This document shows, piece after piece, positions 4,615-29,683 of a DNA stretch of 64,000 bases. A model generated the notes under the pieces. It searched no databases. It was not told the DNA's origin and was given only the letters and a program-made list of their open reading frames with translations. A program made the position numbers and the translations under genes. Every line of letters begins with the position of its first letter. Positions within the stretch are counted from its first letter, which is position 1. Source of the stretch: Pegea sp. RAD2-039 (Eukaryota > Chordata > Thaliacea > Salpida > Salpidae); NCBI GenBank assembly GCA_034620365.1, contig JAQGEQ010000080.1:62001-126000 (forward strand), read 5' to 3'.

Positions 4615-4724
4615 AGTAAATAGCTGTTACAACCATTAAAATGCAACTCTTATCTTACTTTAATTAGATTAGTTATTTCTAGCACTAATTCAATATCCAG
4701 GAAACTTATTAAACTTATTAAATA

Positions 4725-4977
4725 TGATAGTTATAAACATCGTCTCAGTTTCTTTAATTTAGATACTGTGATTTTTTTTCTCTTTCTTATATTATTAACA
4801 TTCCATGTAATTGTTCACTGTTATATGCTTTGAGTGATATCGAAATACCATGTGCTACATCTTTTACTTTCTATATTTTTGATTAAATAGATGTTACTTG
4901 TGAGAATGTGTGTTAGCGAGAGGTGCTCTTTTCCGGCACCCTCCTTCACATTTATTGTAAAAAATAAATAAATTTCT
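4725..4977 (+). mobile_element. Internally deleted LINE 3' end with terminal hairpin, copy 2
   Basis: The left part matches the LINE copy at 4065-4100 (TTTAATTTAGATAC). It then jumps directly to the 3' UTR at GTGATTTTTTTTCTC, so roughly 305 bp of ORF2 C-terminus are missing relative to copy 1. It ends with TGTGAGAATGTGTGTTAGCG, the GAGGTGC...GCACCCTC stem inside the AATGTG...CACATT stem, and an AAAATAAATAAA tail. It is non-autonomous and cannot code for a protein. Confidence 0.7.
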
Positions 4978-6481: not shown

Positions 6482-7726
6482 ATGACTGAACGTTTTAAAA
6501 GATGTCGCCCTTTTTGGGGCATGGTTGTAGGCGCTAGATCCAATCACCCCTTGGTTTATCTGAAGAAATCAAAGTCTAAGATCTATATTGATTCTAGTTC
6601 AGGAACTACACAAATGATTCCTTCATCAATTCGTACAGATTTGAGATTCTGGAAAAGAAACATTTCGAGTTTTATACTGATGTTAGATGACAAGAATAAA
6701 GATGAAAGAATCAAGATTAGATTTGAAACAAAGAAACTTAATGATCCAATATTACTTCAGGAAGATTATATACATCCTGGAGCAGCAACTTTAAATGATG
6801 ATCTATTTAATATTTCAGTTGATAACAAAACAATAAAATTAAAAATCATCATATTTGGAAAGACTCCATCTGATGAAGGACTTGATTCACTTAAAAAACG
6901 GCTGTATATGATTTCAACCACATCAACAGGAGCTTTTGGAGTTGTCTATAAGATGATTGAACCTTCAACATCTAAGTATATAGCAGTGAAGTCAATTCAT
7001 TATGACAACGATCAAAACAACAGTGAAAGCCGACGAGCTTTTTTGAAAGCTGAATCAAATATCTTGAGCATCTTAAAACATCCAAATATTATCTCAAAAG
7101 ATGGCCCACAGTATAATAGTTCTGATATTCTGTGCTTGGAATTTGCTTTTGGGGGAACTTTAATTCCTTTTATTCATAATAATAAGGTGGATGTTGGGGG
7201 CATGAAGTCCATTTTTAAGCAAATATTGTCAGGATTGATTTACATCCATTGTAGTGGATACTCACACCGAGACATCAAACCTGAAAATATTCTTCTGATG
7301 AAGAACAGTCTGCCGCCAGTTGTGAAGATCGCTGATTTTGGATCTTATGGGAAGTTTAATCAAGAAGATGAGATCTTTTCTTGCTCTCCAGGGTATTGTC
7401 CTCCTGAGACACTTATTAAGATAGTTTATCCACAAACTGCAGTCACTTCATCTGCTGATATTTGGAGTTATGGAGTCACTTTATATGAAGTTATAACTGG
7501 AAAGAGACCTTTTGATACAAGACTTAATAGTAGGACATTTCAAGCCAAGATCGAAACCCAGAAACTGAATCAGAATGACTTCAAGTTGACATATGATGAT
7601 TTTCCTGAAACAGATGGGAAGAAAGATCTCATCGATCTCATTTCTCGATGTCTTCGATTAATACCGAGAGAAAGAGCTACAGCAATCCAATTGATGCGAC
7701 ATTTATGGCTTTCCACCCGTTTGTAA
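6482..7726 (+). CDS. Single-exon Ser/Thr kinase, CHK2-like
   Basis: A 414-residue protein kinase that should phosphorylate Ser/Thr on protein substrates. Residues about 138-411 are the catalytic domain. The glycine loop STGAFGVV (148-155) has Ser in place of the first Gly. Other landmarks are the ATP-binding Lys170 (IAVK), helix-C Glu191, HRDIKPEN (262-269), DFG (285-287), PPE in place of APE (307-309), DIWSYGV (326-332) and a late RER Arg. All catalytic residues are present. Residues 10-125 have the length and position of an FHA domain, and the order FHA-like, then kinase, plus local similarity points to CHK2. The phosphopeptide-binding FHA motifs are not clear, so this part is degenerate or misassigned. 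The gene is intronless among intron-rich neighbours, which suggests an intact retrocopy. The frame is open upstream to an acceptor-like TTTATTTAG about 12 nt before the ATG, so an extra 5' exon or a spliced leader is possible. Confidence 0.8.
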   Translation: MTERFKRCRPFWGMVVGARSNHPLVYLKKSKSKIYIDSSSGTTQMIPSSIRTDLRFWKRNISSFILMLDDKNKDERIKIRFETKKLNDPILLQEDYIHPGAATLNDDLFNISVDNKTIKLKIIIFGKTPSDEGLDSLKKRLYMISTTSTGAFGVVYKMIEPSTSKYIAVKSIHYDNDQNNSESRRAFLKAESNILSILKHPNIISKDGPQYNSSDILCLEFAFGGTLIPFIHNNKVDVGGMKSIFKQILSGLIYIHCSGYSHRDIKPENILLMKNSLPPVVKIADFGSYGKFNQEDEIFSCSPGYCPPETLIKIVYPQTAVTSSADIWSYGVTLYEVITGKRPFDTRLNSRTFQAKIETQKLNQNDFKLTYDDFPETDGKKDLIDLISRCLRLIPRERATAIQLMRHLWLSTRL

Positions 7727-10422
7727 CTCACTGCAAAAGTACAATTGCCATCAAGTGTTGCCAATATTTTTAGGATAACTTATATTTGTTTAAACATAAT
7801 AATGTTAATTAGAGAATTTGGAAAAAAAGTTGAATCATAATGATTCTATTTTACTTTTTATGGAATTTAATTAAACAGCTTACTAATATTTGCTCTGTTC
7901 TTTATTTCAATTTGAGAGATATTTTTTTCTATTTGGTAAAAGTATAGATGAATAAGAGCAGAATAACTGTTAACTAGCTGTTGATAGAGTTTAGTATGTT
8001 TTTAGATAATTTTGCATACAAATGCTCTTAGCTACTTTAAAAGATGATATAAATTCTTCATTAGTAAGTTTATTTATCACTTTAAATATCATAGATTACA
8101 AGCAAGCATTTAAAGTCTTCTAACTTTTAGTAATAATTTATTCAAACCAAAAAATGAAAATTAGTTTTTTTGGATGCTAACAACTGGAAGCTTTACCACT
8201 TTACCCTTAAGCTGTTATTATTATTAGCAAGAAATATATAAAAGCTGTGTATAAGTTGTATTCACTCTGACATATGATAGTTAAGTTTAAGTTTGTAGAT
8301 CGTTGACGAAATAGCAATAATATTATGTTATTTAACGTTGTGTTGCTTTATCTACAACTACAAAAATTATAATTATTATAACTTAAAAGAGAGCTTTATT
8401 CGATTGCAAAAGGCGGCTATTAACGGCGGTAAACAAAAACGAATAACTCAATTGTCAGCATACAGAAAGCTCTTTAAATCAATAAGATACTTCCGTTCTA
8501 ACCACATTTACGTATGCGGTAAAATATTTTTCTGTTATATAGTTCATATAGTGAAGCTAGAATTTCCAATAAACTACTACAGCTATGTGACTAATTTATT
8601 TGCATAGGTATCATATGGATCCATTCAAACACTAACAGCAGCTACGCAGACCAAACAAGCATCAATTAACTTACCATAACCGACGACTGATTCATTTGTC
8701 AAGGTTCACGAATAGATGGTAAACCTTTCGACCGTGTAAAATGTAAAACTTTCTATACCAATTTTCTGATTCAACAATATACTACCGCATTACAAATACC
8801 AAAATATCAAGAGATTAAACTTTCATAGAATGCAAATTATTAATGAAGTCGGTTGTATTGCTTACAATCTTTTAAATTTTCTTGAAAAGTAGTTCATAAA
8901 AATCGAAAGTTTGAAATATATTTGAATTCTGTACTTAATTAATCTTGAAAATAATTCAGAAACTGATAATTTGTGATGTTAAGTCGTTGAGATAGAAAGA
9001 TTTACTTAACAATAAGTTTAGATCTACAATAGTGAACCATTTGATAATAATTTAATAATAATTATTCAGATAATTAAAAAACTGTAAAGTATTAAAAGCT
9101 AAAAACCCAATAAAAATAAATAATAAATAAAAAAGAAAAAACATTTTGTTCAGAGTATTCTTAACTTGTTGTATGATGAAACCACAAATATTTAGTTGAA
9201 AAATCATAATTTTTAGACTCAAACTTAATTTGATTTCAAAACCATAGAAATTAGAAAGATAAAAAAAATTGAAATTATTCATCTTTACATTTTAATTAAA
9301 ATTTTTTAATTAACTTTGGTGTAACAGTTAACTGATGCATCATCCATTTAGTTAGATGTTTAAATTGAAAAAGTTCTGGTTAGTTAATGACTACATTTAA
9401 ATTTCAATGTTAGTTTTATTTAAATATAATAATAAAACTCACTTAAGGAAGCTTTAACAAATCATTATCATTATTATGTTACAATTATCACAAAATAAAT
9501 GCTTCTTAAATTTATCTTTATTTATAGATCCTCAATAAAATCAATCGCGTTATAATGATTATTTTCATAATTATAATATTAATCTCGTTTAATAATTTTT
9601 AAGCTTTTGTAATAATCTTCATTCTAAATTAACTTAAGGCAATCTCTAAAGTTGAAGTTTTAACCATTTTGGAACCATTTTGTAATTATTAATAACAAGT
9701 ATAACTTGAACGATTATTTTTTAAATTATTTTTTAGGAAAAAACGACTTATATTAATTTATTTAAATGTCAATTTTGAAAAGAAAACTTCCATTTACTTT
9801 AAGTTTTAATTCAATTTATATGAATATCTTTCAATCACCATGGAAATTAATTAAATGTTGAAAAAAATATTGGACAAGTTTGAAAAGATTTCCAACTAAA
9901 TTTATAATCTTTGAAAAATAAACAAAAATTTGGAAATGTAAAAAGCAACATTTATTTCCACTTATGTTTATCTTATCTAAAAGTTCATAAAACATTAAAA
10001 GTAATCCAGACAAGTTATATCTATAAGTTTCGTTACAATTTTCTGTATAAAGTCTTCAAGAAAAATAACTCTAAAATTTTGACTAAAGTTTACATTTCAA
10101 ATTTATCTTAGTTGCTGTTGTAGAAACTTAATTTTTAGTAAAATCATAAAAAATTAATGATAGAGATAAAAATGTTTAATTTTATTTTAGATTTACAAAA
10201 ATCTTTTAATTATAAATAATTTGTCAAATTACAACAGGCTTGCTAATCATGAAAGATAATTGATCATTAATAATTTAATTAATTGGTTTAATCAGAATTA
10301 TTTGAAGTTTTAAAACTTCAATAAGATATTTATTTGAACAGAAATTTTATCATTTCAGAAATTTATTTTTAATAAAAAATTGATTTGTGACGAAATCGAG
10401 ACACAAACTGATTCCATAAAAA
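7727..10422. other. Intergenic AT-rich DNA
   Basis: Convergent space between the plus-strand kinase and the minus-strand R-SNARE gene. The stretch 8338-8607 is open for 89 codons but has no recognisable motif and sits in skewed AT-rich DNA, so I do not call it a gene. I see no RNA gene or repeat array. Confidence 0.5.
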
Positions 10423-11312: not shown

Positions 11313-12680
11313 TTTTATTTTGAAAATTTACAAAAGTTTATCAACATTTAATTATTTTTGTATTTCAAACGACATAAAAGAAAATTTACGAACTAAAACA
11401 CTATAAAATTTGGGGTTTGTAAAATGAATACCAATTACAAATAGTAATCTATTTATTACGAATAGTTTTTAAAAATAATAAATAATTAATTCATTTTATT
11501 ACAGATAGTAAACAAATCTAAAATTAAATGTTTCGAATAAAATAATAACCATAAAAATTACGACTTAATTAACTTATTAAGATTAATCTTTTAAAATCGA
11601 ATAAATAAAGAATCAAAAATAAACTTATTTAAAAATGTCAATTTTTCTATTCAAAGCTTTATAGAAAAAATATATAATCTAAATAATTGAATATTTGTTT
11701 ATTTACTGTAGTATGTAAAAATTCAACTTTTATGGTCGAATTACAAATGGACACCTAAAAGATTTTTCATTTGCAGCTAAAAGTTTTTAAGTGATTATTA
11801 TTATTAATTCTTAAGTGAAAAAGTCAGAAAATTTTTAAGAAAAATCCAACTAACGCTACAAAATTATGAATAACATAAAATAATATTTGATAATTGAGTT
11901 AAACACTTTTTCTAAGGTTTTAATTAACTTTTATTTAATTAAAAGCTAACTGTATAGTTTTAAAATTGTAAAACATTTTAGTTATATTAACATATAAAAC
12001 AACTTTAATTGGTAAAATATAATTCGAATTATTTCTTACTAACTAATAAGTATTAAATGATTTCAGTTATTCAAAAATTTTTATTGAATATCAAAAAATG
12101 TAAACTGAAACATTCTTTTTTGTTTATTTAATATCTCGGCAGAGAAAATATAAAAAACAATAAAAAAGACAACTTTAACACAATTTGAAAAATCGATTAA
12201 TTAATATTTTCATCAAAAAACGAATTAAATGACAATTTATAAATAAAAATTTTTATAACTTAATAAAAAAAAATTATTTGAAAAACTCAAAAGTTTTAAT
12301 TTCTTTAATCTGAAGATCAAATTAAAAATGTAAATTTACGTCTGAAGCAGAATTTAATATTTTTGACTCATTAAATATTTCGAGTTTTTAATCTTAATAA
12401 AACAATAGAAGTTTTGACAACTATCAAAATGACATTAAAGTCGAACAAACTCACAAAAACTGTTTTATGTCAAAAAGTAAAATTTTATCAACTCAAATCT
12501 ACAAATAAATAAAAAATTTTATTTGAAATTACAAAATTCAATTTTCTACAAACAAAACATTTCACGAAATGACAAAACTGCATTCGACCATTTTCAACCT
12601 CAGAGAGCTAAATGAGACCGGAAGTGATTGTGATGACGTCATTTGAAACATCTGTAAAATAATCATTTCAGATGACGTCA
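11313..12680. other. Intergenic AT-rich DNA between R-SNARE and CABIN1
   Basis: No gene is supported. I looked here on the minus strand for the C-terminal exons of vertebrate CABIN1 and found none. Minus-strand AATAAA hexamers, for example at 12518-12523, could serve the CABIN1 poly(A) site, but such hexamers are frequent in this composition. Confidence 0.45.
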
Positions 12681-15600
12681 TCATCGTACAAAAAAACCTG
12701 TTGAATCAGATGGTAACTCGATGACGTCACTAAGGCGAAAATCGTTCTCGATTGGACGATGATGAGGGATTTGATCCAGAAGAGGAGTTAAAGGAGCGGG
12801 ATCAGGACTCGGATTCGGATAAGATTTGATCTTTCTTCGAACAATCGATCTTGTATAAACAACTGCTCTTCTTGCGAGCCTAATACGATCTTCATCTTTC
12901 AAGTATTGCCTGAAATTTGACAATGACGTCATCAACATCAAAAATGACGTCAGTACCTCCCTGAATCCGGGATTCGATTAAGAAGATTGTGGATGTGAAG
13001 AAGAGATTTATTATCTTTCAATTGACGCAACACGAAACACAACAGCGCCACACAACGGTAAAGATGAGAAGAGAAACTGCCAGGTCTGAAAAACATCAAA
13101 ATCATCCTCAGACGCAGATCTTACTGATCCTCAGACGCAGATCTTATTAATCCTCAGACGCAGATCTAACTGATCCTCAGACGCAGATCTAACTGATCCT
13201 AAGACGCAGATCTTACTGATCCTCAGACGCAGATCTTACTGATCTTCAGACGCAGATCTTACTGATCTTCAAACGCAGATCTTACTGATCCTAAGACGCA
13301 GATCTTGCTGATCCTCAGACGCAGATCTTACTGATCCTCAGACGCAGATCTTGCTGATCCTCAGACGCAGATCTTACTAATCTTCAGACGCAGATCTTAC
13401 TGATCTTCAGACGCAGATCTTACTGATCCTCAGACGCAGATCTTACTGATCTTCAGACGCAGATCTTACTGATCTTCAGACGCAGATCTTTACCTGTCAA
13501 TATCATCAACAGTAACTCTCCATACTCCATTAAATAAATTAGTTTTGTTTCGATCTGCTAGTAACCCAGGTGACGGCATATGATCTAGTTGTTGCCATGA
13601 CGACGTGAACGGCGCTCCATACAATAAGTCACGTGACCATTCCAGGTGCTATGACGTAATGATGACGTCACAGACGTGATGACGTGCGTGAGATGACTGA
13701 CCAGTTTATGGGACCATGTAGCGTAGAGGTGGGCGAGACGATACACAGATTTGTAATGTTGCGGATAACGATGAAGACACATTTGAAAAGCTGCCTCACA
13801 GTGATCCACAATTGAGAGGATTGTGTCTTCAATTCGGATCTTCCAATCATTTGCAGATATCAGTTGATCTGTTTGATCGAAGATAAGATTTCGATTATCG
13901 AAGTGATGACGTCATCACCTTTTTGTTTGATGTTTTTCTGTAAATCGATAATTTCATTTTCCTCTTGTGAAAAGCTGCCGGTAGATGGCGTGTTTGTTGT
14001 TGTGAGTAGAAGAGGAGAATCTTGAGTTTTAGAGCTCGTAGAGTCTTCATCTATAAGAAGAGATGAAGATCAAGTCTTTGAAGATTGTTTCTTGGATGAT
14101 ACTCACCAGTTTTAAAGACATCATTGAAATTAAGAGCTTGTTGGACTGATTCAGGAACTAAAGATCCGATGATGAAGTCTTTGGAGCTCTTTACTCCTCC
14201 AACGAGTTTTGAAGGAAGCTGAAAAGACGAAGATCAGAAGATGAGGATCAGAAGATGAAGATTTGGAGACAAAGATCAGAAGATGAGGATCAGAAGATGA
14301 AGATCAGAAGATGAAGATTTGGAGATGAGGATCAAAAGATGAAGATCAGATGATGAAGATCAGAAGATAAAGATCAGAAGATGAGGATCAAAAGATGAAG
14401 ATCAGATGATGAAGATCAGAAGATGAAGATTTGGAGACAAAGATCAGAAGATAAAGATCAGAAGATGAAGATCAGAAGATAAAGATCAGAAGATGAGGAT
14501 CAAAAGATGAAGATCAGATGATGAAGATCAGAAGATGAAGATCAGAAAATGAAGATCAGATGATAAAGATCAGAAGATGAAGATCAGAAGATGAAGATCA
14601 GAAGATGAAGATCAGAAGATGAAGATCAGAAGATGAAGATCAGAAGATGAAGATCAGAAGATAAAGATTAGAAGATGAAGATCAGATGATGAATATCAAA
14701 AGATAAAGATCAGAAGATGAGGATCAAAAGATAAAGATCAAAAGATGAAGATTAGAAGATGAAGATCAGAAGATGACGATTAAAAGATGAAGATTTGAAG
14801 ATGAAGATCAAAAGATGAAGATCAGAAGATGAAGATCAGAAGATGAAGATTAAAAGATAAAGATCAGAAGATGAGGATCAGAAAATGAAGATCACATGAT
14901 GAAGATTAGAAGATGAATATCAGAAGATGAAAATTAGAAGATGAAGATCAGAAGATGAAGATCAAAAGATGAAGATCAGATGATGAAGATCAGAAGATGA
15001 CGATCAGAAGATGAAGATTAGAAGATGAAGATCAGAAGATAAAGATTAAAAGATAAAGATCAGATGATGAAGATCAGAAGATGACGATCAAAAGATGAAG
15101 ATCAGAAGATGAAGACCAGAAGATGAGGATCAGAAGATGAAGATCAGAAGATGAAGATCAGAAAATGAAGATCAGATGATGAAGATTAGAAGATGAAGAT
15201 CAAAAGATGAAGATCAGATGATGAAGATCAGAAGATGACGATCAGAAGATGAAGATTAGAAGATGAAGATCAGAAGATAAAGATTAAAGATAAAGATCAG
15301 ATGATGAAGATCAGAAGATAAAGATTAAAAGATGAAGATCAAAAGATGAAGATCAGATGATGAAGATCAAAAGATGAAGATCAGAAAATGAAGATCAGAT
15401 GATGAAGATTAGAAGATGAAGATTAGAAGATGAAGATCAGAAGATGAAAATTAGAAGATGAAGATCAGAAGATGAAGATCAAAAGATGAAGATCAGATGA
15501 TGAAGATCAGAAGATGACGATCAGAAGATGAAGATTAGAAGATGAAGATCAGAAGATAAAGATTAAAAGATAAAGATCAGATGATGAAGATCAGAAGATG

Positions 15601-18600
15601 ACGATCAAAAGATGAAGATCAGAAGATGAAGACCAGAAGATGAGGATCAGAAGATGAAGATCAGAAGATGAAGATCAGAAAATGAAGATCAGATGATGAA
15701 GATTAGAAGATGAAGATCAAAAGATGAAGATCAGATGATGAAGATCAGAAGATGACGATCAGAAGATGAAGATTAGAAGATGAAGATCAGAAGATAAAGA
15801 TTAAAGATAAAGATCAGATGATGAAGATTAGAAGATAAAGATTAAAAGATGAAGATCAAAAGATGAAGATCAGATGATGAAGATCAAAAGATGAAGATCA
15901 GAAAATGAAGATCAGATGATGAAGATTAGAAGATGAAGATTAGAAGATGAAGATCAGAAGATGAAAATTAGAAGATGAAGATCAGAAGATAAAGATCAGA
16001 AGATGAAGATCAGAAGATGAAGATCAGAAGATGAAGATCAGAAGATGAAGATCAGAAGATGAAGATCAGAAGATGAAGATCAGAAGATGACGATCAGAAG
16101 ATGAAGATTTGAAGATGAAGATTTGAAGATGAAGATCAGATGATGAAGATTAGAAGATGAAGATTAGAAGATGAAGATCAGAAGATGAAAATTAGAAGAT
16201 GAAGATCAGAAGATAAAGATCAGAAGATGAAGATCATAAGATGAAGATCAGAAGATGATGATCAGAAGATGAAGATCAGAAGATGAAGATTTAGGGAAGA
16301 TTACTTTGTTTTCTTGAGAAGAAGATGTGGAGTTTTGATTCCCAGATTTGAGCTCTCTACGAAGAGCAAACGGGGACTTGGCTGCCTCATCCAAGATATC
16401 TAAAGATCATGATCAGAAGATCACTTCTCTCAAACAAAAGATCAAACCTCTGATAGTATCAAGCTCTTGAAGAAGATCTTGCTGCTCCTGAGGAGTTTGG
16501 AAGTTGCTCTTATAAAAATTGGGACTTTTCGGATCAATCCTTGCATGAGTTGATAAAAATGAAAGAGAAGACGCGTGAAGACGGAAGAACATCTCCAACG
16601 GCTCCACCATCAAATCATTCGGCATCGAATATCTGCTCTGTATCTTCTTCGGATACCTAAAAGTGACGTCATCAGTAACATCAGTGACATCATCAGTGAC
16701 GTCATCAGTAACATCAGTGACGTCATCAATAACGTCATCAGTAACATCAATGACGTCATCAGTGACATCAATGACGTCATTAGTAACAACAATGACGTCA
16801 TCAGTGACATCAGTGACGTCATCAGTGACATCAGTGACGTCATCAGTAACATCTGTGACATCATCAGTGACGTCATCAATAACGTCATCAGTGACATCAG
16901 TGACGTCATCAATAACATCATCAGTGACATCATCAATAACGTCATCAGTGACATCAGTGACGTCATCAATAACATCAATGACGTCATCAATGGCATCAGT
17001 GACGTCATCATCATCGCTTACTTAGCTGAACGATAATGTAATCGATTCGCTGCTTCTTGATAATGACGTAGTGATGACGTCAGCGGTTTCTTCTGCTTCT
17101 CAGAGATCTTGCCAAGCATGTATTCAATAAACCACTCTTCCTCGTACACGTCATCACTCTAAGACACAAATGATGTCATGATGACGTCATCATCTTCAAA
17201 GAGACTTACGTCACATTGACGGACAGTTTCGAAACTCTCATGAGCAAGTTCTAACATCTTTATCTTCTTCAATTTCAGATCTTCTATCTCCTTGATCTTC
17301 TCTTCAATGGGACACAAGTCATCTTCATCCAAGGATTGATTCGGAAGAAGATTATTCGATTTTCGATTCAGTTCTCTATGACGTAATCAGTTGTGACGTC
17401 AGCACTGATGACGTCATCTCACCTTGAATACATGGCTTGTAACCAATATGTGAGACTCCCAAATTCGATGAGGAGCTTCACGTTGTTCTTATCGATCCGA
17501 AGAGCTTGTTGGAAGCTAGAGATCGCGAGCTGGGCTCTTCTTTCTGTCCCTGATTTGGAAAGCTGAAAAAAATTCAAATTTTTTGAGAAATTAAAAACTT
17601 CAAAATAAATTTTTTCAAATATTTTCTTTCTGTGATTTAAAAACTGAATTATCAAAAGAGAAGTCCGTCTTCAAGATGTAGCTGATCAAGTTGAAGGTCT
17701 CAGGAGGACATATTAGTGACAAGGAAAAGTCCCAGGGGTCTTGTGGGTCTAGGGTGGTCTGGTCACGAAACTTCTAGGAGATCCGAATTTAAAACCCGGA
17801 GCTGGAGACCCATAGGTAGTTCGTCCTCAGTTGTACTCAGTGTCATTATCACAGCTCCTGTGACGTCAGCCGGATGCAGCTGCATCAGTCCTGTTCCGCT
17901 GCATATCTGGTTGGCGTGGAATCCTGCTGCATGGGCAGCAACTGGGTCTCCATAATATCTGTCCTGGCTTACATAATGACCATTTTTGACCCAAGCAAGT
18001 CAAGCTACTATTTGATATTTTCAATAATTTTGTAGAAAATTTCGATTTTTAAACAAATATTAAAAAAGTTTCAGAAATGAAATTTTGAGGAATTTTCAAG
18101 TATTTAGTGAAAAGTTAAAAACTTTCTCAAATTTATTAAATCTGAATTTGAAGCAAGATTTCGAAGATTTCGAAGATGTTGAAGATTTCGAAGATGTTGA
18201 AGATTTCGAAGATGTTGAAGATTTCGAAGATGTTGAAGATTTCGAAGATGTCGAAGATTTCGAAGATGTTGAAGATTTCGAAGATTTCGAAGATGTTGAA
18301 GATGTTGAAGATTTCGAAGATGTTGAAGATTTCAAAGATTTCGAAGAATTTCGAAGATTTTGAGGATTTTTGAGACTTTTTTTGGTTTTTCGGAAAACTT
18401 CAAAATTTTTTTTACTTTATTTTGAGAATTTTTTGGTTCACATCTTCTTAATCTTCCATCTGTTTGACTTGATCTTGCAAGAGCAATCCCTGCCCAAGAA
18501 TCCAACCTAAAAAGTCCCAAGATCAATCGGATGTTGAAATTAAAGATCTCAATTACCTCTTAGGATCAATCACAAGATTCAAAAGATAATATTTTACCGC

Positions 18601-18780
18601 TGACGTCATCTCACTGCTTTTGAATGAATAATCAGCCAACAAATAGAACATCTCGCCTAATGACGTCATCTCGTCACGCTCTATAGGAGATGTGACGTCA
18701 CAAGATAGAGATATGAGAGTCCCTTGACAATGATCTTCAAGGAAATTGTTTACTTCAACTTCTTTTTTATCTATCTTCTC
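12681..18780 (-). CDS. CABIN1: CABIN1 exons, C-terminal TPR block
   Basis: Exons read by eye are 18780-18557 ([18 protein letters not shown]), from 18506 ([16 protein letters not shown]), 17562-17423 ([20 protein letters not shown]), 17158-17022 ([17 protein letters not shown]), 16656-16448 ([16 protein letters not shown] and FRLHASS), a piece ending 16305 ([17 protein letters not shown]), 14218-14109 ([15 protein letters not shown]), a Ser/Thr-rich linker near 13910-14040, the [18 protein letters not shown] exon near 13730-13810, a piece ending 13494 ([27 protein letters not shown]), 13085-12957 ([18 protein letters not shown]) and 12909-12681. The joins I checked keep phase. The last exon ends in a Pro-rich stretch ([17 protein letters not shown]) and TGA. 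Confidence 0.85.
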
Positions 18781-21700
18781 CTAAAGACACAGAAGATGAA
18801 GACACAGATGAAGAAGACACAGATGATGAAGATACAGATGAAGAAGACACAGATGAAGAAGATACAGATGAAGAAGATACAGATGAAGAAGACACAGATG
18901 ATGAAGATACAGACGATGAAGACACAGATGAAGAAGATACAGATGAAGAAGATATAGATGAAGAAGACACAGATGAAGAAGATACAGATGATGAAGACAC
19001 AGATGAAGAAGATACAGATGAAGAAGACACAGATGAAGAAGATACAGATGAGGAAGACGCAGATGATGAAGATACAGATGATCAAGACACAGATGAAGAA
19101 GACACAGATGATGAAGATACAGATGAAGAAGATACAGATGAAGAAGATACAGATGAAGAAGACACAGATGAAGAAGATACAGATGAGGAAGACGCAGATG
19201 ATGAAGATACAGATGATCAAGACACAGATGAAGAAGATACAGATGAAGAAGATACAGATGATGAAGACACAGATGAAGAAGACACAGATGATGAAGACAC
19301 AGATGAAGAAGATGCATATGAAGAAGACACAGATGAAGAAGACGCAGATGATGAAGATACAGATGATCAAGACACAGATGAAGAAGATACAGATGAAGAA
19401 GACACAGATGAAGAAGACACAGATGAAGAAGACACAGATGAAGAAGATGCATATGAAGAAGACACAGATGAAGAAGACGCAGATGAAGAAGATACAGATG
19501 ATGAAGACACAGATGAAGAAGATACAGATGAAGAAGATACAGATGAAGAAGACACAGATGATGAAGACACAGATGATGAAGACACAGATGAAGAAGACAC
19601 AGATAAAGAAGACACAGATGATGAAGATACAGATGAAGAAGACACAGATGATGAAGACACAGATGATGAAGACACAGATGAAGAAGACACAGATGAAGAA
19701 GATACAGATGATGAAGACACAGATGAAGAAGATACAGATGAAGAAGATACAGATGAAGAAGACACAGATGAAGAAGATACGGATGAAGAAGATACGGATG
19801 AAGAAGACACAGATGATGAAGATACAGATGAAGAAGATACAGATGAAGAAGATACAGAGGAAGAAGACACAGATGAAGAAGATACAGATGAAGAAGACGC
19901 AGATGATGAAGATACAGATGATCAAGACACAGGTGAAGAAGATACAGATGAAGAAGATACAGATGATGAAGACACAGATGAAGAAGACACAGATGATGAA
20001 GACACAGATGAAGAAGATGCATATGAAGAAGACACAGATGAAGAAGACGCAGATGATGAAGATACAGATGATCAAGACAGATGAAGAAGATACAGATGAA
20101 GAAGATACAGATGAAGAAGACACAGATGAAGAAGATGATACAGATGATGAAGACACAGATGAAGAAGATACAGATGATACAGATGAAGAAGACACAGATG
20201 AAGAAGATACAGATGATGAAGAAGATACAGATGAAGATGATGAAGACAGATGAAGAAGATACAGATGAATGAAGACACAGATGAGAAGACACAGATGAAG
20301 AAGATACAGATGAAGAAGATACAGATGAAGAAGACACAGATGAAGAGAGACACAGATGAAGAAGATACAGATGAAGAAGACACAGATGAAGAAGATACAG
20401 ATGAAGAAGATACAGATGAAGAAGACACAGATGAAGAAGACACAGATGAAGAAGAAGATACAGATGAAGAAGATACAGATGAAGAAGACACAGATGAAGA
20501 AGATACAGATGAAGAAGACAGATGAAGAAGATACAGATGAAGAAGATACAGATGAAGAAGATACAGATGAAGAAGACACAGATGAAGAAGATACAGATGA
20601 AGAAGATACAGATGAAGAAGACACAGATGAAGAAGATACAGATGAAGAAGATACGGATGAAGAAGACACAGATGATGAAGATACAGATGAAGAAGATACA
20701 GATGAAGAAGATACAGAGGAAGAAGACACAGATGAAGAAGATACAGATGAAGAAGACGCAGATGATGAAGATACAGATGATCAAGACACAGGTGAAGAAG
20801 ATACAGATGAAGAAGATACAGATGATGAAGACACAGATGAAGAAGACACAGATGATGAAGACACAGATGAAGAAGATGCATATGAAGAAGACACAGATGA
20901 AGAAGACGCAGATGATGAAGATACAGATGATCAAGACACAGATGAAGAAGATACAGATGAAGAAGACACAGTTGAAGAAGACACAGATGATGAAGACACA
21001 GATGATGAAGACACAGATGAAGAAGATACAGATGAAGAAGATACAGATGAAGAAGACACAGATGAAGAAGATACAGATGAAGAAGATACGGATGAAGAAG
21101 ATACAGATGAAGAAGACACAGATGAAGAAGATACAGATGATGAAGATACAGATGAAGAAGACACAGATGAAGAAGACACAGATGAAGAAGACACAGATGA
21201 AGGAGACGTAGATGAAGAAGACACAGATGAAGGAGACGTAGATGAAGAAGATACAGATGAAGAAGACACAGATGAAGAAGATAAAGATGAAGAAGATACA
21301 GATGAAGAAGACACAGATGAAGAAGATACAGATGAAGAAGATACAGATGAAGAAGACACAGATGAAGAAGATACAGATGAAGAAGACACAGATGATGAAG
21401 ATACAGATGATGAAGACACAGATGAAGAAGACACAGATGATGAAGATACAGATGAAGAAGACACAGATGATGAAGATACAGATGATGAAGATACAGATGA
21501 AGAAGATACAGATGAAGAAGATACAGATGAAGAAGACACAGATGAAGATACAGATGAAGAAGACACAGATGAAGACACAGATGAAGAAGATACAGATGAA
21601 GAAGATACAGATGAAGAAGACACAGATGAAGAAGATACAGATGAAGAAGACACAGATGATGAAGATACAGATGATGAAGACACAGATGAAGAAGACACAG

Positions 21701-24700
21701 ATGATGAAGATACAGATGAAGAAGACGCAGATGATGAAGATACAGATGAAGAAGACACAGATGAAGAAGACACAGATGAAGAAGACACAGATGAAGGAGA
21801 CGTAGATGAAGAAGACACAGATGAAGGAGACGTAGATGAAGAAGATACAGATGAAGAAGACACAGATGAAGAAGATAAAGATGAAGAAGATACAGATGAA
21901 GAAGACACAGATGAAGAAGATACAGATGAAGAAGACACAGATGAAGAAGACACAGATGAAGAAGACACAGATGAAGAAGACGCAGATGAAGAAGATACAG
22001 ATGAAGAAGATACATATGAAGAAGACACAGATGAGGAAGACACAGATGATGAAGACACAGATGAAGATACAAATCAAATAAAAACCTGGATCTTATGAGG
22101 GACATACAAAAGAGCTTTGTGAATTTGTTGTGAAAAATCTTGAGTAATTGTAAGTGCTTTCAAACTATCAAATTGTGCAAAAAATTTTGGTTTGAAATAA
22201 TTGAAGAAAGTTACATAATCTTTCCAAGTATGAACTTTTAATCTATCAAAAAAAATCGATTATTTCATATCTTTAAAGATTAAGAAGAAACCTAGAATGA
22301 TGATCCACAAATTTATTCAATTTGCTTTTAGATGGATATTTAAAAATACAAAAAAAAGTTTGTTCCACAACAAGTTGGATATTTCTGTCTAAATCTGGTT
22401 TGAAAATATGACCAAAACTGAAAAAGAAACATCCAAATAAGATGATTAAAAGATGTATGATCTTACTGATCTTTAGATGATTTATCACTGATCTCAGCTA
22501 GAATCATTCGGAGTAGGAATCCGTTTTTAGCGCAACAGAATCCTGAAAAGAATTTGGATTTATTGATGAGTTTTTAAGATGATTTAGAAGACTTTTTTCT
22601 CCAATTATTTGATGAAAAATTGATAATAAATGAATTTGGTATCGGAACATCTCATCTTCATCTAAAGACTTCAAACTTCTGATGACAAGTTTTAAAAATC
22701 TACAAAAATTAAGGATTAATCTTCTAAAAGATCCTGGATGTTGAGATTGACTTGTAGAAGATACAGATCGTCGAGATATTGAAAGATGCATCATTAGAGA
22801 AGTGATTCCCGCAGTTGATGTTGTTCATCAAGATCTCTATGACACTTAAAAATCCAAAGATCAGATTTGAAACATCTTTAGATTCAAACTCATCCAAATC
22901 TTTTCCACTTTCAATAAAATCTTCTAAATCTATGAAAGATGTGATGAGGAAGAGCAAGATCACAAGATGAAGATACATTTAAGGAAGACAGAGAAAGTCT
23001 TCTTCCAATCTTTCATCTTTTGAAGAGATAAGAAATCTTTCTTGGGTCTTGTTTTATCGTTACTCTAAAAAAATCCCTTTTTAATCTTCAAATAACTGAT
23101 GACGTCATCGTTCACCTTCACTAACTGCGCGTTTACTTCGTTGATCACGTGACTCAACGCCACAAACATCCGCTTGAAGTCTGACGTTTTACTCAAAGCC
23201 ACCACCAGATGTCGTAATTGCTGAGGTCTTTCAACGCTCGAAGATACGCTTGAATGATCACAAAGAGTTGGAAAGAGTAATGACGTCACTTCGGCGTATT
23301 GATTCTTCTCGAAAAGGATGTTGACGTCATCCAACAGCTGCGTTCTGTAACAAACAGTGATGACGTCACGATTAGATGACGTCACTCGCTCACCTATGCA
23401 TGTCGTCGAAACGCGTTTTGATGACGTCAGCGTTGACTTGGTTTAGTGTCACGTGGTTGACTAGCTTAAGTGTGATTGGAAGATTGCGTCGTGAGTTTGC
23501 TGCTGACGTCACACCTGCATGGAAACGATGATAACGTCACTGATGATGACGTCATCACTTACTTGAGCAATGATGAAGAAATTGGAAGGATTCGAATTTA
23601 TGGTGACGAAAAAATGCAAATTTGTATCGACACCACTGAAAACGTAATAAAAAGTCTTCCGCATCATCAAGACTCGATTCAAAGATCTTTGAGATCTTTG
23701 GGAAGAAGGATTCGATGTAAATGAAGATCTGGAAGATCTCTTGCTCCGAGATTTCATTGATCATCAGATCAACTTGGAGCTCAACACAAGTCAGCATCAT
23801 TTCCAACAATCCTCTCATCTTCCTAAAGATCATGTGATGTTATGACGTCATGATCGCGTTTGCGACTTACAAAAAGTCTGTGAAGTCATCAACGGATAAC
23901 TGTTGGATGTTAGGAAGAATAAGATGAGAGATACGAGCCACCACAAGAGGAAGTCCTCTCTTCCACCGGATGTTGATCTTTGAGATAAAGATTTAGTTGA
24001 TGAAGATGAAGATGGGGATCTACTTTTTGGGCAAGTTGGAAGCAGAATTCCTGCATCCATTTAATGATGTTTGATCCTTGAAAAGTCTCAATGAAATGGA
24101 GGAGCTCCTGGACTTCATCTTCATCACTCTCTTTATTTGAAATTAAATTTTTTTTCGAAATCTTCATTTGATCATTTTTTGTGTCTTCATCTGTAGTTAG
24201 GATCTTCTTAGGATCATTGGATCATCTCATAGACATCTCACCTTTATCAGATGATTTTAATGATGACATCATATACGGTGAAGATTCCATAAGCTTGATG
24301 ACGTCATCTGGAAGAGCTTCTTTGATCATTTTAAAATAGTTTTGTTTTAATTGAGGAATATTTTCAGGTTTTTCATCGACCTGAAAAAGTCACGTGATTA
24401 GTTGATAAGTCACGTGATTAGTTGATAAGTCACGTGATTAGTTGCTAAGTGACGTGATTAGTTGATAAGTCACGTGATTAGTTGTTAAGTCACGTGGTTA
24501 GTTGTTAAGTCACGTGGTTAGTTGTTAAGTCACGTGATTAGTTGTTAAGTCACGTGATTAGTTGTTAAGTCACGTGATTAGTTGTCAAGTCACGTGATTA
24601 GTTGATGAGTCACGTGATTAGTTGTTAAGTGACGTGGTTAGTTGTTAAGTCACGTGATTAGTTGTTAAGTGACGTGGTTAGTTGATAAGTCACGTGATTA

Positions 24701-27700
24701 GTTGTTAAGTCACGTGATTAGTTGATGAGTCACGTGGTTAGTTGTTAAGTGACGTGGTTAGTTGTTAAGTCACGTGATTAGTTGTTAAGTCACGTGATTA
24801 GTTGATAAGTCACGTGATTAGTTGCTAAGTGACGTGATTAGTTGATAAGTCACGTGATTAGTTGTTAAGTCACGTGGTTAGTTGTTAAGTCACGTGGTTA
24901 GTTGTTAAGTCACGTGATTAGTTGTTAAGTCACGTGATTAGTTGATAAGTCACGTGATTAGTTGCTAAGTGACGTGATTAGTTGATAAGTCACGTGATTA
25001 GTTGTTAAGTGACGTGGTTAGTTGATAAGTCACGTGATTAGTTGTTAAGTCACGTGGTTAGTTGTTAAGTCACGTGATTAGTTGTCAAGTCACGTGATTA
25101 GTTGATGAGTCACGTGATTAGTTGATAAGTCACGTGATTAGTTGCTAAGTGACGTGATTAGTTGCTAAGTCACGTGATTAGTTGTTAAGTGACGTGGTTA
25201 GTTGTTAAGTCACGTGATTAGTTGTTAAGTCACGTGATTAGTTGATAAGTCACGTGATTAGTTGATAAGTCACGTGATTAGTTGTTAAGTGACGTGATTA
25301 GTTGATAAGTCACGTGATTAGTTGTTAAGTGACGTGATTAGTTGATAAGTCACGTGATTAGTTGTTAAGTGACGTGGTTAGTTGATAAGTCACGTGATTA
25401 GTTGTTAAGTGACGTGATTAGTTGTTAAGTGACGTGATTAGTTGATAAGTCACGTGATTAGTTGTTAAGTCACGTGATTAGTTGATGAGTCACGTGATTA
25501 GTTGTTAAGTGACGTGGTTAGTTGTTAAGTCACGTGATTAGTTGTTAAGTGACGTGGTTAGTTGATAAGTCACGTGATTAGTTGTTAAGTCACGTGATTA
25601 GTTGATGAGTCACGTGGTTAGTTGTTAAGTGACGTGGTTAGTTGTTAAGTCACGTGATTAGTTGTTAAGTCACGTGATTAGTTGATAAGTCACGTGATTA
25701 GTTGATAAGTCACGTGATTAGTTGATAAGTCACGTGATTAGTTGATAAGTCACGTGATTAGTTGCTAAGTGACGTGATTAGTTGATAAGTCACGTGATTA
25801 GTTGTTAAGTCACGTGGTTAGTTGTTAAGTCACGTGGTTAGTTGTTAAGTCACGTGATTAGTTGTTAAGTCACGTGATTAGTTGTTAAGTCACGTGATTA
25901 GTTGTCAAGTCACGTGATTAGTTGATGAGTCACGTGATTAGTTGTTAAGTGACGTGGTTAGTTGTTAAGTCACGTGATTAGTTGTTAAGTGACGTGGTTA
26001 GTTGATAAGTCACGTGATTAGTTGTTAAGTCACGTGATTAGTTGATGAGTCACGTGGTTAGTTGTTAAGTGACGTGGTTAGTTGTTAAGTCACGTGATTA
26101 GTTGTTAAGTCACGTGATTAGTTGATAAGTCACGTGATTAGTTGCTAAGTGACGTGATTAGTTGATAAGTCACGTGATTAGTTGTTAAGTCACGTGGTTA
26201 GTTGTTAAGTCACGTGGTTAGTTGTTAAGTCACGTGATTAGTTGTTAAGTCACGTGATTAGTTGATAAGTCACGTGATTAGTTGCTAAGTGACGTGATTA
26301 GTTGATAAGTCACGTGATTAGTTGTTAAGTGACGTGGTTAGTTGATAAGTCACGTGATTAGTTGTTAAGTCACGTGGTTAGTTGTTAAGTCACGTGATTA
26401 GTTGTCAAGTCACGTGATTAGTTGATGAGTCACGTGATTAGTTGATAAGTCACGTGATTAGTTGCTAAGTGACGTGATTAGTTGCTAAGTCACGTGATTA
26501 GTTGTTAAGTGACGTGGTTAGTTGTTAAGTCACGTGATTAGTTGTTAAGTCACGTGATTAGTTGATAAGTCACGTGATTAGTTGATAAGTCACGTGATTA
26601 GTTGTTAAGTGACGTGATTAGTTGATAAGTCACGTGATTAGTTGTTAAGTGACGTGATTAGTTGATAAGTCACGTGATTAGTTGTTAAGTGACGTGGTTA
26701 GTTGATAAGTCACGTGATTAGTTGTTAAGTGACGTGATTAGTTGTTAAGTGACGTGATTAGTTGATAAGTCACGTGATTAGTTGTTAAGTCACGTGGTTA
26801 GTTGTTAAGTCACGTGATTAGTTGTTAAGTGACGTGATTAGTTGTTAAGTGACGCGGTTAGTTGTTAAGTGACGTGGTTAGTTGTTAAGTCACGTGATTA
26901 GTTGTTAAGTGACGTGATTAGTTGTTAAGTGACGTGATTAGTTGTTAAGTGACGTGATTAGTTGTTAAGTCACGTGGTTAGTTGTTAAGTCACGTGGTTA
27001 GTTGTTAAGTGACGTGGTCAACTTACAGTTTGATTTGATGCTTCATGAAGTTTTCTTGTGACGCATCGATTTCGAGTCGACCTTCTTTTTTTATTTTCAT
27101 CTCTAAAAAAATACTTCGAGATTTGAAAATAAGATTTAAAGAAGAAGAAACATTCTTTAAAAGAAGAAGAAACATTCTTTAAAAGAAGAAGAAACGATCT
27201 TTGAAGATGAAGACACAATCACTTACAGATGGATCGGTGTTGATGAAGATTTTCGTTTCTTTCTTTTCGCAGCTTTTGGGTCTTCCATGTCACTAGTTGT
27301 AGCAGAAACTGCAGCTAAAAAATACAATGACGTCATCACATCTATACATCACTGATGACGTCATCACTTTCACAAAACTCTTCAACTCGATCGAGAAGTT
27401 GATACAGGATCGATCTAACAGCAATTTCTTGATGATGATCTTCAATTGAAATCAACATCTCTTCAAGGGTCTGTTCAACTTCCAATCGTATCGCGATGTC
27501 GATGACGTCATCACCAAAAACTGACATCTCAGAGTTATCGGATTCAGATACGGAGTTGATGACGTCATTACTGATTACATCTTCTAAGAAAGTGTGGAGT
27601 TTTAGAGAGGGATGAGTTTCTCTGTTTACTACCTCTTGGTTGTGTCTTCTGTGATGTAAGATCTGAAAAATAGATCTTCGAATGAAGTCCTGCTTCCGAA

Positions 27701-29683
27701 CTCTTCATCAGTTTGTTGTAAGTCGTGATGAGCGCGACTCCCAAAGATTTCTAATCACAAGATGATCTCTCTGATCTTAAGATGAAGATTCAACTCACCC
27801 AATCAAGTGATGATAATTTGTTGACAGTGACGTCATCAGGAGGTTTGTGACGACACGCGCTCTGATGACGTAGACGAAGCTTCGCGACCTCTTCTAAGAG
27901 CTGAAAATATATGTTGATGGAAGAAATAGAAAGATTTTTTATTTACTTCTCTTTTGGTTTCATCAGCGATGATGACGTCATAGATAGAAGAAGAGCTGTA
28001 GAAGGAAAAGATGAAGATTATGATGAAGATGAAGATTAGAGGAAAAACCAGAGTTTGAAAAGATGAAGACTATCTCGACGAAGATGAGGTGAAATCCGAA
28101 AGATTTCATCTCGAAAGATAATCGCTTTTAAATAAGAGTCTTCACGTTCAAGAGATCTTGCGATCCAAATAAGACATCCTAGAAAAGAAATCTTTGATGT
28201 AAAAAGAGTTTTAAAGACTCGTTAAAGATGTCTAAGACCCTCTGGTTACATATGCTGGATTAGTAACCCAAAAATTTCATGATTTTCTAGTTGATGATAA
28301 ACCCAACAAACTTTGCATCAATTGATCCCCCCTCAGAGTTTAGATCTTCAAAATTATTTGAGACAAAGAGGCAATTATGTACCTCATCTAAAGTTAGTTT
28401 ATAATCAAATATATCATCTCTAAGTTGATTATTTGCTTGTTGCAGTTAAAAAAATTACTAAATGTTACAAATTAGATAAACACTTTTCAACCTACCTTCA
28501 AAGTCATACAAAACAAACAGAACTGTTATCAAGTAGTCAACACATGGCCAGTGAAATGGGTTACATTGTAGTCCACATGTAAAAGCGTGCCTAGCTAGAT
28601 AAAACCGTCCCAGATAAATAGCATGTTTACCAATACTAAGCCATAAAGTTACATCTGTAGTATCCAGTTTAACAGCCTGTTAAAAATGAATAAAATTTTA
28701 TTTTTTTTTCGGTTTTTTTTTAGACTCACTTCAAGGTAGTGTTCCATCGCATTTGATATATTTCCTTTTAATTCTTCCATAAAAGCTAGATTTTTATGTG
28801 AAGAATATTTGAGGACTAATCCTGGGTTTTTCAGGGGTTTTTCAACTGCTTCACCATCCTCATTCAGAAGAGTTGAGACTGCCTTGAAATCAAAACACTG
28901 GTCACCAAATAATTCATTTCAAAAATTTCTACTTTTTTAATTAATTAACTTATTAATAACATGTATATTATGTTATATTTGCAATAAGAACTGTATAATT
29001 AGTAAATATATATTTATAATAAATCTAACAACTTAATAGTCTATCAAACAATAATTAAAATTAATAATAAATATATCTATACGAAATTATAATAATGAAA
29101 GCTATTAAAATAAATTAACAAATGATTTTACTAAAACTGAAATCATCAACTTTGCCATAAACTACTTTTATATTTATATAAATAGAAAATTAGACTTACT
29201 TCAATTACTAATGGTGTTTGTAAAGTTTTATTAAATTTTTCAGATGCTTCGTCATGACATTCATTCTTCAGTAACAGTAAAGCTGAATTATATAATTCAT
29301 AAACCTGCACTTGCTGTTAAACAATGAAAAATTATTTAAAGTTGATATAATATTATCTAAATAATTCTAAATAATTTAAATACTGAAATATTGGTTCAAA
29401 ATAAGTTAAAATAAATCATTTTAATTCTTTATAAAATCAATATTTAATTATGAAAATAGTTTTAACTTGAATCTAATTTCTAAAAAATATAAATAATTTT
29501 AAAATATCTAAACAAAAATAATAAATAAATACCTGTGCCTCTTTAGTTTCTCTAGTAAGAAGATTTGATCCTGGGACCTTGCTACTATTTGAAGATTCAT
29601 TCAATGCTCTTAATCTCAACTGAATCGAAAAAATTTTTAATTTTTCTTCTTTAAACTTTTTTATAAAAAATTTAACTTACCAT
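12681..29683 (-). CDS. CABIN1: CABIN1 orthologue (calcineurin-binding protein cabin-1), whole gene
   Basis: CABIN1 is a nuclear TPR-rich scaffold of the HIRA complex, which deposits histone H3.3. In vertebrates it also binds calcineurin and MEF2. The exons read on the minus strand stay collinear with vertebrate CABIN1 from the start ([10 protein letters not shown]) to the last TPR block ([15 protein letters not shown]). Diagnostic words include [56 protein letters not shown] and [12 protein letters not shown]. The ATG stands alone in its exon, followed at once by a GTAAGT donor. The gene has many short exons; five introns are almost pure minisatellite and a sixth contains one. The frame closes at TGA 12681-12683. 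The vertebrate C-terminal calcineurin/MEF2 region has no counterpart in the window. I see no frameshift in the exons I traced, so the gene looks functional. Some small central exons were not delimited. Confidence 0.92.
13105..13490. repeat. 23-bp minisatellite filling a CABIN1 intron
   Basis: Seventeen copies of (G/A)ACGCAGATCT occur at exactly 23-bp spacing from 13111 to 13479, with no indel. The unit contains CAGACGCAGATCTTACTGAT. Substitutions are few (TCCTCAG/TCTTCAG, ACT/GCT). The intron is 13493-13086 on the minus strand. Its donor is GTA followed directly by the first unit, and only about 20 nt of unique sequence precede the acceptor (GATGTTTTTCAG). On the sense strand each unit junction reads CAGTAAGAT, close to a 5' splice site. 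Confidence 0.95.
14226..16290. repeat. 14-bp minisatellite filling a CABIN1 intron
   Basis: About 2.06 kb of GATGAAGATCAGAA-type 14-mers. Variants include GATCAAAA, GATTAGAA, GACGATCAGAA, GATTTGAA and GACCAGAA. The intron is 16304-14219 on the minus strand. The donor is GTAATC and the array begins about 15 nt in. The acceptor is CTTTTCAG, directly at the other end of the array. The sense strand is pyrimidine-rich (CTGATCTTCATCTT). A higher-order period is visible: the rare GACCAG variant recurs at 15115 and 15631, 516 bp apart, with matching flanks. Confidence 0.93.
16663..17010. repeat. CRE-rich tandem array (TGACGTCATCAG-type) filling a CABIN1 intron
   Basis: A repeat of 12/24-bp character alternating GTGACGTCATCA with GTAACATCA/GTGACATCA words. 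By eye it holds 13 complete TGACGTCA palindromes, the CREB/ATF consensus. The intron is 17021-16657 on the minus strand, 365 nt. The array runs from about +11 after the donor (GTAAGC) to about -6 before the acceptor (CACTTTTAG). Open frames of 120-153 codons on both strands are by-products of the repeat. Confidence 0.93.
17720..17960 (-). repeat. Dispersed repeat X, copy 2 (open reading frame)
   Basis: Homologous to 3790-4020 (+). On the minus strand this copy is open from about 17990 to 17755 and encodes a stretch with [38 protein letters not shown] and [19 protein letters not shown] before a stop. It lies in a CABIN1 intron between the LDSWAG and SSFQQAL exons, in the sense orientation. It has no counterpart in the human CABIN1 sequence I recall. 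I do not recognise the peptide. It may be a transposon-borne domain or an alternative exon. Confidence 0.55.
18154..18354. repeat. 18-bp minisatellite in a CABIN1 intron
   Basis: Units of GAAGATTTCGAAGATGTT and the shorter GAAGATTTC/GAAGATGTT halves, about eleven in a row. It lies inside the intron between the LDSWAG exon and the next exon. Unlike the other arrays, it does not reach the splice sites: several hundred bases of unique sequence and repeat X share the intron. The acidic (ED/FEDVEDF) and Ser-rich frames are artefacts. Confidence 0.92.
18786..22070. repeat. 15-bp minisatellite (ACAGATGAAGAAGAT) filling a CABIN1 intron
   Basis: About 3.29 kb of 15-mers. Main variants are ACAGATGAAGAAGAC, GATGATGAAGA, GCAGATGATGAAGAT, GATCAAGACAC, GGAGACGTAG and GCATATGAAGA. 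The intron is 22085-18781 on the minus strand. The donor is CAG|GTTTTT with the array starting about 16 nt in. The acceptor, GTGTCTTTAG, grows directly out of the last unit. The sense strand is (TCTTCTTCATCTGT)-like and pyrimidine-rich. Register is lost only at about 20060-20540. Because 15 is a multiple of three, open frames of several hundred codons (DTDEE, SSSSV, KKIQM, FFICI types) appear on both strands. None is a gene. Internal duplications are visible at offsets of about 859 bp (19800/20660) and 594 bp (21201/21795). Confidence 0.95.
22086..27995 (-). CDS. CABIN1: CABIN1 exons, central region
   Basis: Firm exons are 27995-27947 ([14 protein letters not shown]), 27900-27799 ([13 protein letters not shown], ending LSSLDW), 27102-27027 (KKRRSTRNR, a basic NLS-like segment that follows [11 protein letters not shown] from about 27300-27230) and 24380-24242. 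They are followed by exon pieces with [112 protein letters not shown] and, ending at 22086, a block with [16 protein letters not shown]. Each has its counterpart in the same order in human CABIN1. Small introns here are about 50-150 nt. The large exception is 24381-27026, which is a pure tandem array. Several exon codons embed TGACGTCA. Confidence 0.8.
24386..27020. repeat. 20-bp E-box/CRE minisatellite that is an entire CABIN1 intron
   Basis: The unit is GTTGTTAAGTCACGTGATTA. Variable positions are GTTG(T/A/C)(T/C)(A/G)AGT, (C/G)ACGTG and (A/G)TTA. There are 132 units in strict 20-bp register without one indel. The intron is 27026-24381 on the minus strand, 2,646 nt: a 6-nt donor (GTAAGT), then units to within a few bases of the acceptor (CTTTTTCAG). 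Nearly every unit carries either CACGTG (a bHLH-ZIP E-box, usually as TCACGTGA) or GACGTG (a CRE-like half-site); one reads GACGCG. On the sense strand unit junctions read AACTAAT or AACTAAC, branch-point-like words. A block of about 1.09 kb (24387-25475) recurs without a difference at +1,320 bp, and a smaller block at +880 bp. Confidence 0.97.
28049..29683 (-). CDS. CABIN1: CABIN1 exons, N-terminal TPR block
   Basis: The exons and phases fit exactly: 29683-29681 (ATG only), 29619-29533, 29313-29200, 28882-28730, 28676-28496 and 28178-28049. The peptide runs from [13 protein letters not shown] through [70 protein letters not shown] and [14 protein letters not shown] to [13 protein letters not shown] and [10 protein letters not shown]. 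These correspond to the first TPRs of human CABIN1. The join between 28496 and 28178 (split Gly codon) is fixed by the homology. An exon-like stretch between them at 28383-28435 must therefore be skipped. The first five exons use AT-rich codons in AT-rich DNA. The sixth and all later exons use richer codons. Confidence 0.9.

Follow-up and report, generated by a model that had tools for sequence, protein, structure and literature searches.

The CABIN1 gene and its array-filled introns

The window, that is, the whole analysed stretch of 64,000 nucleotides from the salp Pegea sp. RAD2-039, carries a CABIN1 gene on its minus strand. Exons and introns were predicted by a small gene finder, for which long open frames and splice sites of the same genome (assembly of 105.7 Mb in 387 contigs) served as training set. 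The gene and its seven array-bearing introns are listed below.

12698..29619, minus strand: CABIN1 gene, 37 modelled coding exons and 36 introns
13086..13493, minus strand: intron of 408 nt, filled by the 23-bp array 13104-13490
14219..16304, minus strand: intron of 2086 nt, filled by the 14-bp array 14224-16290
16657..17021, minus strand: intron of 365 nt, filled by an array of about 21/33 bp, 16662-17010
17563..18415, minus strand: intron of 853 nt, not filled, with the 18-bp array 18155-18369
18781..22085, minus strand: intron of 3305 nt, filled by the 15-bp array 18784-22067
24381..27026, minus strand: intron of 2646 nt, filled by the 20-bp array 24387-27016
27103..27226, minus strand: intron of 124 nt, intermediate in size, with a 22-bp unit in 3.7 copies at 27138-27217

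Among the 7984 best candidates by shared words that were scored in the protein search, tunicate CABIN1 proteins gave the best matches by E-value, with identities over the searched region of 47% for Phallusia mammillata, 43% for Clavelina and 36% for Styela. Pfam and PDB searches with pieces of the protein returned weak matches only, the best being of TPR type, and the identity of the gene rests on the match to tunicate CABIN1. Neither a tRNA scan nor an Rfam scan at the gathering threshold gave a match anywhere in the window. Within the model, the 5' end and the piece 17563-18415 are uncertain; two exons inside this piece and a 33-nt exon at 12619-12651 were left out. A looser, retrained gene model called too many genes, and the stricter version took its place; the latter still makes doubtful exons elsewhere, and reliance is placed on those CABIN1 introns that are backed by protein alignment. 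As the gene finder admits GT-AG introns only, the GT-AG ends of 36 out of 36 introns are not independent evidence.

According to the original prediction, five introns of this gene are built almost wholly of minisatellite and together account for about 8.8 kb. The trained model placed these five minus-strand introns at exactly the same coordinates, with arrays ending 3-18 nt from the splice sites and a summed intron length of 8810 nt; the raw sequence of each starts with GT and ends with AG. Donor-to-array and array-to-acceptor distances are 3 and 18 nt for the intron at 13086, 14 and 5 nt at 14219, 11 and 5 nt at 16657 (taken from the TRF row ending at 17010), 18 and 3 nt at 18781, and 10 and 6 nt at 24381.

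The expected collinearity of the exons with CABIN1 is borne out by BLASTP blocks against the Phallusia protein, covering residues 1-1122 at 32% and 1217-1724 at 47% identity. Three introns (13086, 16657 and 18781) sit within ungapped aligned stretches, with clean junctions at DIDR|PGSFS, SAK|YPKKIQ and PHKIQ|EKID. At the other two (14219, QENK|LPSK; 24381, SNQT|VDEK) the junction residues align, with gaps 1 to about 7 residues away. With GT-AG ends at in-frame junctions and a conserved protein running collinearly across them, the five intervals are predicted to be spliceosomal introns.

Unit lengths of 23, 14, 15 and 20 bp, as predicted, were confirmed by TRF (reporting threshold, score 50). 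The 23-bp array holds 16.8 copies (score 662) of the sense unit CAGTAAGATCTGCGTCTGAGGAT, which contains AG. The 14-bp array (147.8 copies, score 3098) has the sense unit CTGATCTTCATCTT and the 15-bp array (219.1 copies, score 4844) the sense unit CTTCATCTGTGTCTT. For the 20-bp array (131.5 copies, score 4301; sense unit AACAACTAATCACGTGACTT), 10 AG were counted over its length. The fifth array, built on TGACGTCATC, gives several TRF rows and deviates from the proposed unit of about 12/24 bp, since periods 33 (score 279) and 21 (score 278) fit best and the 12-bp row is weaker (score 219). All five are minisatellites, consisting of head-to-tail units of 14-23 bp (21/33 for the fifth), within the roughly 6-100 bp that define the class, in about 10-219 copies, with variant units and block duplications inside the arrays.

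The figure of five arrays proved to be an undercount, as two more lie in the same stretch, at 18155-18369 and 27138-27217. The former shares its 853-nt intron with a coding-like stretch at 17645-17963, comprising two model exons that do not align to CABIN1; it was treated as intron and is perhaps a short interspersed element.

Between 12.6 and 28 kb the gene has 30 introns, of which 23 are 60 nt or shorter with a median of 49 nt (normal range 46-56 nt). Every one of the seven longer introns (124, 365, 408, 853, 2086, 2646 and 3305 nt) contains a TRF array, and no array with a TRF score of at least 50 was found in the 23 short introns or in the exons of this stretch. The AT-rich 5' part of the gene has modelled introns of 184, 317 and 317 nt that carry no array of comparable size. 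Arrays are therefore not the sole route to a longer intron, and the coincidence of long intron and array is limited to the 12.6-28 kb stretch rather than extending over the whole gene.

The flanks of the five arrays plus two units amount to 47, 51, 56, 58 and 67 nt, in comparison to 46-56 nt for normal introns. Reduced to two units, the five introns would thus be close to ordinary size, which is compatible with, but no proof of, such an ancestral state; the 23-bp array (67 nt) and an 11-bp array in a dynein gene (35 nt, see below) fall off the normal size. Since host introns of about 49 nt leave no other room, an array in them must end beside both splice sites. The arrays had been described as trimmed to the splice sites. 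Their ends do lie this close, and a minimal intron with no spare room would account for the tight fit, so that no trimming device is required.

Seeds, shared words and recurrence in the genome

Short direct duplications are also visible in ordinary introns of the gene, in which they form two-copy seeds:

12910..12956, minus strand: ordinary intron of 47 nt, TGACGTCATT twice at a lag of 21
23345..23393, minus strand: ordinary intron of 49 nt, GTGACGTCATC twice at a lag of 16

We compared spaced duplicates with dinucleotide shuffles. Short introns of the CABIN1 island described below gave a mean z of 1.56 (p<=0.05 in 5 of 23), short introns outside islands a z of 0.32 (3 of 37) and 49-mers from exons a z of 0.17 (7 of 74). 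For the four short introns of the dynein locus that were included, z was 1.68 with p<=0.05 in one.

Words of the array units recur in the short introns as well. Counts of unit 7-mers there, observed versus shuffled, were 42 and 7.9 for the 14-bp unit, 19 and 5.2 for the 15-bp unit, 53 and 3.2 for the 21-bp unit and 27 and 5.5 for the 18-bp unit, i.e. four of six unit vocabularies are enriched. For the 20-bp and 23-bp units the short introns show no such enrichment (2 versus 2.6 and 3 versus 1.6), and hence no seed is visible for these two. Several unit words are over-represented in exons, too, and on both strands (59 versus 7.0 for the 21-bp unit).

Inside the large arrays, longer blocks are repeated exactly. 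The 20-bp array contains a repeat of 1090 nt at a lag of 1320 (66 units), and further exact internal repeats in the big arrays measure 393 and 298 nt. They suggest that blocks were duplicated recently, with the assembly as a possible alternative source of the 1090-nt repeat.

The units had been considered private to their introns, with no two alike. This does not hold genome-wide. When a 28-mer of the 14-bp unit was searched with up to one mismatch, the genome gave 1037 matches, and the exact ones fall, among the matches listed, on at least 12 contigs, that of the window included; moreover, the 14- and 15-bp units have CTTCATCT in common. The 20-bp family occurs on two contigs, that of the window and contig 8, where its relative lies in an axonemal dynein heavy chain gene (locus L012; DHC_N2, E 5e-35). 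One modelled intron of this gene (582-1017 of the locus) is filled by an 11-bp array, which ends 9 and 4 nt from the modelled splice sites; two other introns there, which carry 20- and 33-bp arrays, are by TRF limits not filled. Locus L022, probably a Cdc42 effector gene judging from PBD and BORG_CEP matches below the Pfam cut-off, contains a pair of degenerate 14-bp arrays that have the same sense orientation and lie in introns likewise not filled by TRF limits.

Three other repeats were noted in the loci read. At 1-1848 of locus L029, a 228-bp tandem repeat with copies 97% alike lies inside a strongly coding open frame and represents a repeat protein gene. A 12-bp array of 45 copies (TGATGTAGTTGA) at 2-544 of L022 belongs neither to the gene model nor to a stretch that qualifies as island. 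In the AT-rich flank at 1081-1531 of L025, a 12-bp AT-rich array (TTTAATAAACTT) resembles in style the window array 1656-1758 (TTATTAAAAAGT).

Motif-rich islands and the proposed origin of the arrays

The 8-bp palindrome TGACGTCA, which also occurs in the extended form TGATGACGTCATCA, is concentrated in the array-bearing part of the window and in parts of three further loci:

12600..28000 of the window, no strand: TGACGTCA-rich island with sharp edges, holding all seven arrays described
8-7087 of L012: further island by TGACGTCA enrichment
271-564 and 7675-9839 of L018: further islands by TGACGTCA enrichment
4024-7828 and 9222-9737 of L022: further islands by TGACGTCA enrichment

Of 50 copies in the window, 44 are found within 12.6-28 kb. 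In this stretch the CABIN1 exons carry 14 copies against 0.095 expected from dinucleotide shuffles, and the non-array remainder 17 against 0.045. The copies in coding exons encode peptides of the DDVI/DVIS type. Pooled over the islands of the window, L012, L018 and L022, the palindrome is about 57 times commoner than outside.

Arrays of at least 150 bp number 12 in 33.2 kb of island and 3 in 235.1 kb outside, the array near 16.7 kb being counted by its 16662-16968 row; in this sample the window and L012 were chosen for their arrays and L025 as adjoining the window. When only the 19 arbitrarily placed stretches are considered, 3 arrays in 12.0 kb of island compare with 2 in about 172 kb outside, the three island arrays all belonging to L022, with none in L018, and one of the two outside arrays lying in a coding exon. 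An association of arrays with islands is likely, although the islands that are independent of each other are few.

We consider ordinary minisatellite birth and block amplification inside the minimal introns of a repeat-prone compartment, with the splice sites kept by selection, to be the best explanation of these findings, with a probability of roughly three in four. The default intron of the 12.6-28 kb stretch is about 49 nt long and consists of a donor, a branch-point/pyrimidine region and an acceptor. Short words 11-21 nt apart in such an intron could give rise to a two-copy seed of the kind seen in the ordinary introns. The seed may then have grown by slippage and subsequently by block duplication; the block repeats themselves are observed. 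With only about 20 nt of a 49-nt intron outside the two units, a grown array would have to reach nearly up to both splice sites, donor and acceptor presumably being kept by selection on splicing. Growth from a 49-nt ancestral intron is itself inferred. Arrays appear to gather in gene-sized TGACGTCA-rich islands, which may act as repeat-prone compartments, an association drawn from few islands. An advantage for units whose transcribed strand is free of AG, in that they add no cryptic acceptors, is suggestive only.

The earlier proposal that intron interiors are amplified from a seed while the splice sites are kept fits well with the two-copy seeds, the words shared with short introns by four of six units, the 3.7-copy intermediate and the block duplications. 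Its other variant, that the interiors are replaced, is not needed and finds no support.

For the islands themselves we tentatively entertain a more specific reading, which we hold to be possible but not probable. A process linked to the palindrome, e.g. motif-directed recombination or repair, might write TGACGTCA into exons and introns alike and give birth to minisatellites, which splicing would then filter; mainly AG-poor, sense-oriented units would reach kilobases, and minisatellites would largely determine intron length in these genes. A tie between TGACGTCA enrichment and recombination, as in fission yeast, where the CRE-like motif M26 marks hot spots, is only a guess. As marked compartments, the islands are where the cause can be sought.

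Splicing might also act on the unit itself, such that AG-free units with branch-point or pyrimidine signals grow and the arrays are functionally adapted introns instead of passive repeats. We regard this as rather unlikely. Among the 13 arrays with a gene strand, some of whose units are related, the sense strand of the unit is free of AG in 9 and the antisense strand in 1, and CTNAY is present in 7 sense versus 2 antisense units. The 14- and 15-bp arrays contain no AG at all over 2067 and 3284 nt, respectively, and the four arrays with AG in their sense unit are short (387, 181, 178 and 80 bp). However, several AG-free arrays are equally short (215-423 bp) and 10 AG are tolerated in the 20-bp array. 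Ordinary short introns are AG-poor as well (28 AG versus 65 CT), so that the seed could already have supplied the bias. In the sampled 268 kb, sense and antisense counts of unit words next to TTTYAG did not differ significantly for any unit (10/7, 9/4, 6/13, 15/10, 17/17 and 8/5, sense first), which argues against a strong claim on orientation at that resolution.

Ongoing removal of AG inside the arrays was considered and rejected. A permutation by variant type over nine arrays, which allows for copies sharing one mutation, set 13 observed AG against 31.2 expected (P 0.17); at the level of copies, P was small for both the 14-bp array (0 of 1000) and the 15-bp array (1 of 1000). A filter that prefers units with an AG-free transcribed strand is kept as a suggestive but unproven hypothesis.

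A dedicated system that replaces or inserts intron interiors and leaves the splice sites in place, be it introner-like or delivering arrays by transposon, seems improbable. It would account for the 14-bp unit at unlinked places on, among the matches listed, at least 12 contigs including that of the window, for the 20-bp family on two contigs, and for the 38 places in the genome at which CTGATCTTCATCTT stands at most 22 nt upstream of TTTYAG, a count for this one orientation in which many places read like plain acceptors. On the other hand, the units differ among the five introns, most of their words and some seeds are already present in ordinary short introns, an array of intermediate size exists in the 124-nt intron, and no shared end-to-end element was found in the loci read.

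There is equally little probability that the long arrays are assembly artefacts, produced by inflating genuinely small arrays or by merging those of two haplotypes. The exact 1090-nt repeat at a lag of 1320 in the 20-bp array could represent a duplicated assembly path, but seven different arrays occur in this one gene and more on other contigs, the copies within each array of the window have diverged (0.77-0.94 identity at one period), and the exons on either side run collinearly with Phallusia CABIN1. Coding arrays can practically be dismissed: although a minus-strand frame of 1103 codons stays open through the 15-bp array, which also lies within plus-strand frames of 455 and 584 codons, any open frame stays open in 15-bp units, the CABIN1 alignment runs straight over the interval and well-scoring splice sites flank it.

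Taken as minisatellite growth inside minimal introns, the gene presents a size series from 49-nt introns, some of them seeded, via 124 nt (3.7 copies) and 365-408 nt to 2-3.3 kb. Such a series is a natural experiment on minisatellite birth, on repeat-driven intron growth tolerated by splicing, and on which units are tolerated.

Comparison with known systems

Human MUC2 contains seven intronic and two exonic minisatellites, and eight novel ones were reported as unique to this gene (PMC2065792). CABIN1 is similar in that many unrelated minisatellites occur in a single gene. Unlike those of CABIN1, the MUC2 arrays are not described as filling minimal introns in the part of that report drawn on here. 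Its authors tie minisatellite density to the near-telomere position of the gene (PMC2065792).

VNTR polymorphism clusters in human subtelomeres (PMC7608644), and five VNTRs are reported for hTERT (PMC2915984). As in these VNTR-rich human genes, the arrays described here are clustered and many are intronic, in particular compartments; in contrast, the compartment of CABIN1 is marked by an 8-bp palindrome, exons included, and its arrays take up almost the entire intron. An excess of the C. elegans minisatellite CeRep25B is reported near regions of alternative splicing (PMC4039745). It is one named family, whereas the CABIN1 arrays belong to several unit families. The portions of PMC1636649 and PMC13326754 used here contain nothing about intronic minisatellites.

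Among tunicates, intron sizes peak at 47 bp in Oikopleura and show a minor peak at 60 bp in Ciona (PMC4122922). The gene shares with Oikopleura, for which rapid intron turnover is described (PMC4122922), short introns of the tunicate type and fast intron evolution. Array-filled introns in tunicates are not described in the titles and abstract openings among the matches listed for the open-access literature.

Introner elements differ from the present case. Nothing here indicates that introns are new or that a single element has been copied in full to many sites, and in place of the same element from splice site to splice site the five CABIN1 introns contain five units. Elsewhere in the genome, the shared 14-bp unit was observed as a repeat word.

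The original prediction had regarded the arrays as resembling no named system. Several unrelated intronic minisatellites in one gene do have a precedent in MUC2. What is unusual about CABIN1 is the combination of minimal introns, arrays that make up almost the whole intron, several of them per gene, and an island marked by a motif.
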